Shown here piece after piece: positions 30,257 through 50,826 of a stretch of DNA of 64,000 bases; position 1 is the stretch's first letter; each line of letters begins with the position of its first letter. The notes beneath the pieces are model-generated. The model saw only the letters and a list, made by a program, of their open reading frames with translations. It searched no databases and had not been told where the DNA came from. Position numbers and translations under genes: made by a program. Origin of the DNA: Chryseobacterium sp. (GTDB taxonomy: Bacteria > Bacteroidota > Bacteroidia > Flavobacteriales > Weeksellaceae); the NCBI RefSeq assembly GCF_008831505.1, contig NZ_CP044507.1, positions 1,488,001-1,552,000 on the forward strand, read 5' to 3'.

Positions 30257-30438
30257 CCAATGGTAGAAAGACGACATAGCAAATTCGGACAGACACACGT
30301 AAAAATAATTCGATGTGACAGTCCTTGATTTGAATTCCACAACTTATGGATAAAAAGTGGATACCAGCAACCACTCGAAAAAAACGGGGCGTATCCGAAA
30401 AGCCATACGAGTAGGACAAACAATTAAAATTCAAAAAA

Positions 30439-46065: not shown

Positions 46066-46737
46066 ATGAAAAATTTATCAATTCTCGCACTTAGCGCAGT
46101 TCTTACACTGGCAGCATGTAAGGAATCCAAGACAGACACCGCCACCACTTCCGGCGAACAAACCGTAGCTGCTGCTGTGGGTGACACTTTTACCGTAAAT
46201 ACAGCAGCCAGTACAGTGAAATGGACAGCTTACCACAAGGGAGGTCTGAACCCGCGTTTTGGAACTACGCAGGCTACCGGAACGTTTACCGTGGAAAACG
46301 GTGCACTTACGGCCGGTTCCCTTACTTCAGATATCAATACACTTACAACAGATCCAAAGGCTGTAGATCCTGCATTGAGTGATGGAAAAACATCCGCAGA
46401 CCTGGATGCGCACCTGAAAAATGAGGATTTCTTCGATGTTGCGAAATATCCTTCGGTGAAATTTGACATCACGAAGGTAGAAGATTTAGCTGCCGGAACG
46501 GAAAGCAAAGTTGCCGGTGCCAATAAAACCGTGAGCGGCAATCTTACCATTAAGGACAAAACAGTGAACGTTTCTTTCCCGGCGAAAGTAGAGGTAACCG
46601 AAAACGGTCTCACAATGGTATCAAGCTTCACCATCAACCGCCAGGACTGGGGACTAACCTACGGTACTGAAGGTGATGCTAAAGACTGGATGATTTCCCA
46701 GGAAGTGGATCTGGAACTGAACATAGTTGCTTCATAG
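46066..46737 (+). CDS. YceI-family lipoprotein
   Basis: 223 residues with lipobox LAAC (Cys18), then a Thr/Ser/Ala linker and a YceI lipocalin-like beta barrel (from DTFTVNTAASTVKWTAYHKG onwards; TLTSDINTLTTDPK and FFDVAKYPSVKFDIT are typical segments). YceI proteins bind long isoprenoid lipids in the periplasm and are often induced by stress or alkaline pH. Anchored in a membrane facing the periplasm. Confidence 0.9.
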   Translation: MKNLSILALSAVLTLAACKESKTDTATTSGEQTVAAAVGDTFTVNTAASTVKWTAYHKGGLNPRFGTTQATGTFTVENGALTAGSLTSDINTLTTDPKAVDPALSDGKTSADLDAHLKNEDFFDVAKYPSVKFDITKVEDLAAGTESKVAGANKTVSGNLTIKDKTVNVSFPAKVEVTENGLTMVSSFTINRQDWGLTYGTEGDAKDWMISQEVDLELNIVAS

Positions 46738-46763: not shown

Positions 46764-46790
46764 AGGCCGCAGTATTGCGGCCTTCTTTAT
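46764..46790 (+). terminator. terminator of the YceI gene
   Basis: AGGCCGCA (46764-46771), loop GTAT, TGCGGCCT (46776-46783), then a T-rich tail. Confidence 0.85.
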
Positions 46791-46851
46791 CTTACAGATA
46801 TATGACAATATCTCTTAAACACTTTAGCGTCCTTTAGTATACCTACAAAAA

Positions 46852-46931
46852 TAAAAACCCCAAAGTAAAGTTACTTCGGGATTCCTATTAATATGGTTAT
46901 TAGTTTCAATAGGTCTTCACGGTTATTGATC
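46852..46931 (-). ncRNA. candidate small RNA, about 80 nt
   Basis: Between a full minus-strand promoter (46937-46967) and a rho-independent terminator there is no ORF. Terminator on the minus strand: CCCGAAGTA (46880-46872), loop ACTT, TACTTTGGG (46867-46859), then GTTTTTATTTTT. Inside, ATAGG (around 46931) can pair with CCTAT (around 46910), and that CCTATT can instead pair with AATAGG (around 46887), giving two competing hairpins. I cannot match it to a named family; Flavo-1-type RNAs would be one group to compare. Confidence 0.65.
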
Positions 46932-46936
46932 CTATA

Positions 46937-46967
46937 CAAATGTACTTACATGCCTTTATTTGTACAA
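46937..46967 (-). promoter_or_regulatory. promoter of the candidate small RNA
   Basis: Minus strand: TTG (46967-46965), exactly 20 bp, TACATTTG (46944-46937). Perfect Bacteroidota consensus with no coding gene downstream before the terminator. The gap 46981-47170 shows nothing else. Confidence 0.8.
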
Positions 46968-47173
46968 CAGGAAAAACACCCTTTTTCAGTTGCAAATTTG
47001 AGTTAATTGAAAGCGGCATCAACTGAACTTCCAGCGTATGTTAAATTTTATCTAAGCCGCAGATTTCAGTTAAAATAATTAAAAATAGCAGACAGAATTT
47101 AGATTAATATCAATATTTAATCTTAAATTTGATACAGTACTGAACCCTTTGTGTAATAATAAAAACAGATGTG

Positions 47174-48247: not shown

Positions 48248-48258
48248 AAATATTGAAA

Positions 48259-48591
48259 ATGGGAGTTACGAAAACGGAGCATTATACGGACGCACAAAAT
48301 GAAACAGCCAACCTGCTTAAAGCCATTGCCCACCCCGCCAGAGTGGCAATCATTGAATTCCTGATCCAAACCAATTCCTGCATCTGCAACGATATCGTAG
48401 GCCATCTCCCTCTCTCGCAGGCCACGGTTTCGCAGCATTTAAGGGAATTAAAGAATGCCGGGATCATCCAGGGGACTGTGGAAGGTAAGGCGATTAACTA
48501 TTGCATAAACAAAGAAGCGGTTCAGAAACTGGAACTCTATTTCAGCGGTATTTTTCGCGCAGCGGCCAAGCTGGAAAACCGTTGCTGTTAA
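48259..48591 (+). CDS. arsR: ArsR-family metalloregulator
   Basis: 110-residue winged-helix repressor. Cys-x-Cys in NSCICNDIVGHLPLSQ is at the position of the ArsR arsenite-sensing ELCVCDL motif, and the recognition helix is SQATVSQHLRELK. The protein ends in CC. It should repress the downstream operon and be released by As(III). The TTG two codons upstream (48253) is an alternative start. Confidence 0.88.
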   Translation: MGVTKTEHYTDAQNETANLLKAIAHPARVAIIEFLIQTNSCICNDIVGHLPLSQATVSQHLRELKNAGIIQGTVEGKAINYCINKEAVQKLELYFSGIFRAAAKLENRCC

Positions 48592-48619
48592 AATTAACAA
48601 CACTTTTAAACTAAATAAA

Positions 48620-49084
48620 ATGAAACTTTCAGAAATCAAGGACATCCTAACAAACTTACAGGAACTGCATTTCGTACTGGAAAATGGCGAACAGGTTCCT
48701 GAACATTTCCATGTAACCGAAGTGGGCCAGATCAACAAGAGGTTCATTGACTGTGGCGGCGTTATACGCGACGAAAAGGCCATCAACTTCCAGCTTTGGT
48801 TTTCTACCGATAATGACCACCGCCTGGAGGCCGAGAAACTAAAAAAAATCATTGCCCTTTCCGAGGACCAGCTGGGCCTGGAAGATGCTGAAATTGAAGT
48901 TGAATACCAGCAGTCTACCATCGGTAAATTCGGTCTCGAGTTCAACGGAAGTGCCTTTGTTCTCACCAAGAAAACCACTGCCTGTCTGGCGCAGGATGCC
49001 TGTGGAGTGCCTCAGGAAAAACCTAGGGTAAAACTTTCCGATCTTCAATCCTCAAGCTGTGCTCCGGGATCCGGTTGCTGCTAG
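48620..49084 (+). CDS. DUF6428 protein of the arsenic operon
   Basis: 154 residues, soluble. Most of the chain is a mixed alpha/beta domain (ELHFVLENGEQVPEHFHVTE) known from Bacteroidota arsenic loci as DUF6428. The end is cysteine-rich (SSSCAPGSGCC) plus CLAQDAC before it, suitable for binding arsenite or another thiophilic metal, possibly as a chaperone for the exporter. Function unproven. Second gene of the operon. Confidence 0.75.
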   Translation: MKLSEIKDILTNLQELHFVLENGEQVPEHFHVTEVGQINKRFIDCGGVIRDEKAINFQLWFSTDNDHRLEAEKLKKIIALSEDQLGLEDAEIEVEYQQSTIGKFGLEFNGSAFVLTKKTTACLAQDACGVPQEKPRVKLSDLQSSSCAPGSGCC

Positions 49085-49136
49085 AGTTTCAGATCGCTGA
49101 AAACAGTATTAATCTGCTGATATTCTTAATAAAACC

Positions 49137-49775
49137 ATGTTCAAAAAAATCAAGCTAAGCATTGAAGACATTGCCGTAATGCCCGTTTCCGAAGAGCGAA
49201 AGGAAATCCTGCAGCCTCTTGCTGAGTTTATAATGAAAAAAGCAGATGCGGGGGAAAGGATTAACCTGAACTTCATCTGTACCCACAATTCGCGAAGAAG
49301 TCATCTTTCCCAGATCTGGGCACAGGTGATGGCGGAACATTTTAGCCTTAAAAACGTATTCTGCTATTCCGGGGGAACCGAAGCCACTGCCATGTTTCCG
49401 AAAATAGCCGAGACCCTGCACACTCAGGGAATGGAAATCCAGAAACTCTCTGAAACTGATAATCCGGTATATGCTGTTAAATATTCAGAGAACGCCCATC
49501 CTGTGATTTGTTTTTCAAAAAGATATGATGATTCTTTTAATCCGGTTTCCGGTTTTGCCGCGGTGATGACCTGCTCGAACGCCGATGCAGGCTGCCCTTT
49601 CATAGCAGGTGCAGAAAAGCGCTTTGCCGTGAAATTTGATGATCCGAAATCCAGCGATGGCACCCATAAGATGGACCGTGTTTACTTTGAGCGAAGCCTG
49701 GAGATTGCGGCTGAAATGTATTTTGTTATGAATCTTGCGTCAGGCCCAAATCAGAATACCGATGGCAGCAAATAA
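49137..49775 (+). CDS. low-molecular-weight phosphatase fold protein, arsenate reductase-like
   Basis: 212 residues. The P-loop [14 protein letters not shown] has the Cys-x5-Arg pattern with Cys48, as in LMW protein tyrosine phosphatases and thioredoxin-linked arsenate reductases. A second Cys pair occurs in [12 protein letters not shown]. Sitting between DUF6428 and acr3, it probably reduces As(V) to As(III) for export. It overlaps the acr3 start by 14 bp. Confidence 0.82.
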
Positions 49776-50826
49776 CTGCGCACCTCATGAAAGAAAAAAG
49801 CTTTCTTTCCTGGATAAAAACCTTACGCTCTGGATCTTCCTGGCCATGTTCCTGGGAGTGGCGATAGGATATCTTTTTCCTGATTCCTCTACCGTGATCA
49901 ATACCTTTTCCTACGGTACTACAAATATTCCGCTGGCGATCGGTCTTATCCTCATGATGTATCCGCCCTTTACCAAAGTGCGGTACCGTGAGCTTCCGAA
50001 AGTCTTTAAAAACACGAAAATCCTGGGGATTTCCCTGCTGCTGAACTGGGTGATAGGTCCTGTTCTTATGTTTGCATTGGCCATCATTTTCCTGCACGAT
50101 TATCCCGAATACATGATCGGATTAATTCTGATCGGCCTTGCCCGCTGCATCGCTATGGTAATGGTCTGGAACGAGCTGGCTGATGGTAACCGTGAATACG
50201 CCGCCGGCCTTGTAGCCATAAACAGTATTTTTCAGGTGGTTTTTTACAGTTTTTATGCCTATCTTTTCATTACAGTTTTGCCTCCGCTGTTCGGAATCAC
50301 CGGCTCTGAAGTAGATATCACCATCGCTCAGATCGCCGAAAGTGTAGCAATTTATCTGGGTATTCCTTTCGCCCTGGGATTTCTGACCCGATATTTTCTG
50401 CTGAAAGCCAAAGGTGAGGAATGGTATAACGGTGTCTTCATTCCAAAGGTCTCTCCAGTTACTTTAATCGCGCTGTTGTTCACGATTGTTATCATGTTCA
50501 GCCTGAAAGGGGAAATGATCGTTCAGATTCCATTTGATGTGCTTCGCATCGCAGTGCCTCTGGTGATTTATTTTGCACTTATGTTTCTGCTGAGTTTCTT
50601 TGTGGGAAAAAAACTGGGCGCCGATTATTCCAGAAACGCAGCCGTTTCGTTCACCGCGGCGGGTAATAATTTTGAGCTGGCCATTGCCGTAGCCATTGGC
50701 GTTTACGGTATCAATTCCGGACAGGCATTTGCGGGTGTGATTGGCCCACTGGTCGAAGTTCCCGCATTAATTGCCCTGGTAAGCATCGCATTCTGGCTGA
50801 AAAAAAGGTGGTATAAAAACAGTTAG
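49762..50826 (+). CDS. acr3: Acr3-type arsenite efflux transporter
   Basis: 354-residue inner-membrane exporter with ten membrane helices. The conserved Cys in [19 protein letters not shown] and the [18 protein letters not shown] motif are the two signature regions of Acr3. It exports As(OH)3 using proton motive force. ATG at 49762 ([13 protein letters not shown]) is preferred over a TTG at 49735. Last gene of the arsenic operon. Confidence 0.93.

Follow-up and report, generated by a model that had tools for sequence, protein, structure and literature searches.

A predicted small RNA family in two genera of Weeksellaceae with a conserved 5' core and genus-specific operators

What, if anything, is transcribed from the 433-bp gap between yceI (stop codon at 46737) and a gene for a PLDc_N-domain protein (47171) in Chryseobacterium sp.? 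The gap is in a stretch of 64,000 nucleotides (NCBI RefSeq contig NZ_CP044507.1, positions 1,488,001 to 1,552,000), the whole of which was analyzed and is referred to here as the window. A sequence-only reading had described an otherwise empty gap of 430 bp that contained an unannotated small RNA (sRNA) with a promoter and a terminator, and the elements were present as described. On the minus strand, TTG (46967-46965) is followed by 20 nt, TACATTTG (46944-46937), and a hairpin with a T tail (46888-46851). We believe that the locus is probably a stand-alone sRNA gene, encoding a trans-acting, base-pairing sRNA similar to GibS and under the control of an activator.

The promoter elements were conserved and the sequence between them was not. 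By itself, the pattern TTG-N20-TANNTTTG is weak evidence of a promoter: there were 4 matches in the window, compared to 1.4 expected. Our sample of the genus consisted of four genomes, and two of them (G001 and G002) carry the unit beside yceI, with the same promoter architecture in G002 as in G001 and the window genome (G000). In a three-way alignment of these genomes, the -7 element TACATTTG (46937..46944, minus strand), which is of the sigma-ABfr or TAnnTTTG type and has that motif in 26/26 family members (see below), was identical at 8/8 (G000/G001) or 7/8 positions, and the first 19 nt after it were identical at 19/19 (G000/G001) or 18/19 positions. The 20-nt spacer between the near-invariant flanks (46945..46964, minus strand) appeared to be unconstrained, with identities of 2/20 (G000/G001) and 5/20 and 6/20 in the other pairs. 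A box, AAAAAGGGTGTTTTTCCTGTTG (46965..46986, minus strand), that abuts and includes the TTG of the -33 region is a putative operator and was identical at 22/22 positions in all three genomes. Judging from these comparisons, we consider the decisive evidence for a promoter to be the conserved 22-nt box abutting the -33 region, combined with the conservation across species of the box, the -7 element, the 5' end of the RNA, and the terminator around a randomized spacer.

The unit belongs to what appears to be a new sRNA family. A first covariance model, made from the three own-genus sequences only, identified a homologous locus in a second genus (g8), with a highest score of 48 bits (E 1.6e-6 per genome). 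A second model was made from 12 sequences. Searches covered 296 genomes of the family Weeksellaceae, and the refined model found 26 members with scores of 66.9-101.5 bits and a single copy in each genome: 3 of the 4 own-genus genomes and all 23 sampled genomes of the second genus. It did not find the RNA in G003, the remaining genome of the window genus. The next matches scored 47.8 bits or less, leaving a clean gap in scores below the 26 members; those under 48 bits outside both genera (L211-L214) were rejected because on reading they contained only the terminator. In BLAST searches of the 296 family genomes, full-length matches were confined to the genus, and the weak matches elsewhere were to the terminator or the box, or were due to chance. 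There was no related sequence in the plasmid and phage collections. No family in Rfam release 15 matched at the gathering score, including Flavo-1 and 6S, and the best sub-threshold matches to the region at E 10 were trpB (25.4 versus 59 bits) and VrrA (24.9 versus 50 bits). Flavo-1, likewise found in Flavobacteria and named in the sequence-only reading, differs in that it did not match the locus in any scan, even when the region was searched at E 10. Because there was no Rfam match, we call the family new, and the sequence comparisons indicate that it is real. The sRNA proposed by the sequence-only reading is strongly supported, and its promoter and hairpin have been kept together in 26 genomes of two genera.

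The predicted sRNA stands apart from its neighbors. It would be ~82 nt long (46851..46932, minus strand), in the range of ~80-90 nt, with covariance homologues and no coding capacity. The motif TAnnTTTG spans -12 to -5 in Flavobacterium (PMC9723704), and from this position we placed the transcription start site, by prediction, at ~46932; the predicted 5' end of the RNA reads GGATCAATAACC. yceI is convergent with the sRNA and has its own terminator (46764..46783, plus strand), separate from the hairpin of the sRNA. The neighboring gene was also convergent in the loci examined. Therefore, the sRNA unit is neither a leader nor the terminator of yceI. There is no co-oriented gene downstream, where the strand of the sRNA runs antisense to yceI. 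As would be expected for an intergenic sRNA similar to GibS, the unit has a promoter and an intrinsic terminator of its own, is not followed by a co-oriented gene, and has no conserved open reading frame.

The last point bears on whether the transcript could instead be a minimal mRNA, or what is left of a gene that has decayed, and have no function at the RNA level. The sequence-only reading had reported no ORF, and we found nothing beyond GTG-AAG-ACC-TAT-TGA, which is a possible reading of the 5' end of the RNA in G000; G001 has the same four-codon frame. The frame is not kept in G002, most members in the second genus have no ATG, GTG, or TTG in the body of the RNA, and the 5' end is nearly invariant over 26 genomes. 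We give almost no credence to a coding or vestigial transcript.

The conserved 5' end of the RNA is predicted to be a single-stranded seed. The 5' core GATCAATAACCGTGAAGAC (46913..46931, minus strand) has the consensus GATYARTAACCRTRAARAC in the 26 members, and GATYAATAACCGTRAARAC is kept in 26/26. The consensus of the family is TAnnTTTG, 4 or 5 nt, and GATYARTAACCRTRAARAC, followed by a variable A-rich stretch and the terminator. If TAnnTTTG is at -12 to -5 as in Flavobacterium, then the core forms the extreme 5' end of the RNA. It is unlikely that the resemblance of the core between the two genera arose by convergence. By prediction, the sRNA thus has, like GibS, a conserved single-stranded seed close to its 5' end, and this unpaired end probably recognizes mRNAs. 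Duplex prediction with the genes of the window and the response-regulator operon described below gave no convincing mRNA target.

The core pattern was limited to the sRNA loci of the two genera, except for matches with two mismatches in gene starts, leaders, or coding sequence. Those in genera g20 and g23 fell in coding sequence, at gene starts, or in a superoxide dismutase leader, and were rejected. Separately, we noted that this superoxide dismutase leader, in L231 and L232, resembles the 5' core of the sRNA (TTTGCCACAGATTAATAACAATAAAAAA). Such matches speak for a decoy or sponge, in which the 5' end would mimic an mRNA leader (AATAACC before the start codon, then AAAAC) and titrate another RNA or an RNA-binding protein: several of the two-mismatch matches elsewhere in the family represent true gene starts with the sequence AATAACC-ATG-AAAAC, and one is the superoxide dismutase leader. 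However, AATAACC was not enriched before start codons in the window (0/13), and conservation of the sRNA runs beyond the part that resembles a leader. We consider it rather unlikely that the sRNA is a decoy.

A transcript that acts in cis, by antisense or convergent interference with the neighboring gene, would fit the consistently convergent orientation of the RNA and its neighbor, and read-through of the terminator would be antisense to yceI. However, the convergent gene is yceI here and in the second genus encodes a GNAT acetyltransferase, whereas the 5' core stays conserved. In addition, the terminators of the sRNA and yceI are separate and the conserved 5' end is the part farthest from the neighbor, making an action in cis a poor explanation of the locus, and we favor action in trans by the 5' core.

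The terminator was the only conserved structure. The predicted intrinsic terminator hairpin, AUAGGAAUCCCGAAGUA-ACUU-UACUUUGGGGUUUUUAU (46851..46888, minus strand), has 17 bp, with A-U and G-U pairs around a 9-bp core. There is a terminal hairpin with a U tract in 26/26 members (11-18 bp; -12.8 to -23.8 kcal/mol). The fold of the 86-nt transcript has an energy of -25.6 kcal/mol (z -4.4 compared to shuffled sequences), nearly all of which is contributed by the terminator. Within the window genus, nearly all of the terminator pairs have been kept through changes (one position is C-G, U-G, or U-A), and covariation in these three sequences only, a number too small to reach significance, was not significant (192/500 shuffles). 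With 12 sequences, RNAalifold found double changes that kept pairing in 9/12 terminator pairs, the kind of compensatory change that the earlier reading had proposed looking for, and in another RNAalifold prediction in 8/10 pairs. It predicted no structure other than the terminator. The 57-nt body folded no better than shuffled sequences, and across the 26 members the unstructured body, ~45-56 nt in length, had less structure than did shuffled sequences (median z +0.82).

These results do not support the suggestion that the transcript is a switching RNA, similar to a riboswitch or attenuator, that alternates between two mutually exclusive hairpins (ATAGG/CCTAT and CCTATT/AATAGG). The sequences of G000 and G001 allow both helices to be drawn, formation of the second would intrude on the lower stem of the terminator, and the z-score of the body in these two genomes is -1.9 to -2.3. 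However, the minimum-energy fold contains neither helix, G002 has lost three pairs of each, and both are absent from the second genus. Furthermore, RNAalifold gave only the terminator, the body across the family is unstructured, and no co-oriented gene follows; that is, we found no conserved alternative helices that would control a co-oriented gene. A switching RNA is very improbable, and we continue with the interpretation that the unstructured body is part of a base-pairing sRNA.

Expression of the sRNA appears to be controlled at the level of transcription. In 26/26 family members, exactly 21 nt separate the end of the operator from TAnnTTTG, and the operator sequence differs between the two genera. 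This conserved operator with its fixed spacing supports the proposal that the RNA is regulated, at the level of transcription. In all 26 members the operator is activator-like, as judged from sequence. In the window genus it reads AAAAAGGGTGTTTTTCCTGTT. The perfect 16-mer of the box has 4 copies in the window genome. Searching 395 genomes of the order for the box followed by 22 nt and TAnnTTTG, with no more than two mismatches, gave 19 matches compared to 0 with the reversed pattern as a control. Genes behind the AGGGTGTTTTTCCTGT box encode lipoproteins, Pvc16_N and DUF2589 proteins, and hypothetical proteins. In the literature, the sequence of the box gave only chance matches, in viral and vaccine papers.

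We made several other observations about the box. AGGGTGTTTTTCCTGT marks an uncharacterized regulon across Flavobacteriales (also in Flavobacterium, Polaribacter, and Frigoriflavimonas), at a fixed distance from TAnnTTTG, and tandem boxes 23 bp apart occur. Besides 46965-46986, sites in the window genome are at G000:C1 1099388, 1443380, 1458250, and 1748638. In other genera, some short units with the box and promoter end in a terminator and have no ORF: L127:5355-5470 (Polaribacter), L023:1504-1627, L028:1504-1620, and L088 (minus strand). These cannot be aligned with the sRNA and are possibly further sRNAs of the same regulon. A family of hypothetical proteins with no Pfam match (motif ..VCFAQYP../..YFAAYP..) recurs behind the box (L122, L118, L124, and L125). 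In 4/4 genomes of the genus (L038, L092, L103, and L005), the box also lies directly behind corA or overlaps its end, with no clear promoter in that orientation.

The second genus has a different operator and a candidate activator encoded next to the sRNA. The operator in g8 is the palindrome TTACGG-N4-CCGTAA, with 2-11 copies per g8 genome compared to 0-2 for the reversed control, and it is near background in the window genus. The sRNA directly follows a gene for a response regulator in 22/23 g8 genomes; in the other (G086), the operator and the sRNA are present and the response regulator is not alongside. The response regulator aligns with RcsB over its whole length (residues 4-201; profile E 1.8e-6) and is an RcsB-like candidate for control of the sRNA in the second genus, a functional parallel to RcsB and RprA. 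A gene for a TPR-type histidine kinase precedes the response-regulator gene in the two g8 loci that were read further upstream. Based on the adjacency of the genes, the family of the response regulator, the recurrence of the operator, and its spacing from the promoter, the response regulator is most likely the activator of the sRNA in g8, acting from this operator. Other copies of TTACGG-N4-CCGTAA (L262-L281), several of them 21 nt before TAnnTTTG, are ahead of genes for secreted and hypothetical proteins.

The window genus does not appear to have the same combination of response regulator and operator, and AGGGTGTTTTTCCTGT replaces the operator. A search of 4 window-genus genomes, made without a positive control, did not find the g8 response regulator. 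The simplest inference is that another regulator activates the sRNA in the window genus. We tentatively suggest, as a possibility somewhat short of an even chance, that one sRNA with one conserved seed has been rewired, so that two different activators act from an identical 21-nt promoter position: in g8 the RcsB-like two-component system encoded next to it, and in the window genus a regulator of the AGGGTGTTTTTCCTGT regulon that is either unrelated or strongly diverged. The latter would apparently also drive the orphan short RNAs in L023, L028, L088, and L127.

To our knowledge, few sRNAs have been described in Flavobacteriia and almost no circuits that link a regulator and an sRNA. Here, a single-copy family has a defined predicted seed and operator, with a candidate sensor kinase and response regulator adjoining in one genus, and simple knock-outs could be used to test every part of the circuit: the signal, the regulator, the RNA, and its targets. 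The operator has been swapped between genera while the core of the RNA stayed fixed, providing a clean case for studying rewired control of an sRNA. In our model, an activator over the -33 region would switch on the sRNA: in g8 the RcsB-like response regulator encoded immediately upstream, and in the window genus the regulator of the AGGGTGTTTTTCCTGT regulon. The single-stranded 5' core would then pair with mRNAs, probably near start codons, and pairing would alter their translation or stability without Hfq, as for GibS in Bacteroides.

The comparison to known sRNAs is by description. GibS of Bacteroides thetaiotaomicron has a terminator and a conserved single-stranded 5' seed that pairs with mRNAs near the start codon, and its phylum has no obvious Hfq (PMC7366714). 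The sRNA described here is likewise an intergenic sRNA of Bacteroidota with a conserved single-stranded 5' region, an intrinsic terminator, and a context without Hfq, but GibS differs in having known targets and two hairpins in its middle part, neither of which we found here, and the likeness is one of description. In the second genus, the sRNA is similar to RprA of Escherichia coli in being apparently under a response regulator of the RcsB family (PMC3465796, PMC12388358). The sRNA differs in that the response-regulator gene is adjacent in g8, the phylum is another one, the structure and targets of RprA are not shared, and the operator in the window genus is different. Rfp18 and the other Rfp sRNAs of Flavobacterium psychrophilum are also independent flavobacterial sRNAs with genus-wide conservation (PMC9723704); compared by description only, Rfp18 is strongly structured, in contrast to the unstructured body here.

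Elsewhere in the window, the Rfam scan identified a DUF805 RNA motif (RF03081) at 30352-30421 on the plus strand (77.9 bits). From their translations only, ORFs at 48253-50826 resemble an arsenic-resistance cluster, with an ArsR-type regulator, an arsenate reductase-like protein, and an ACR3-like transporter.
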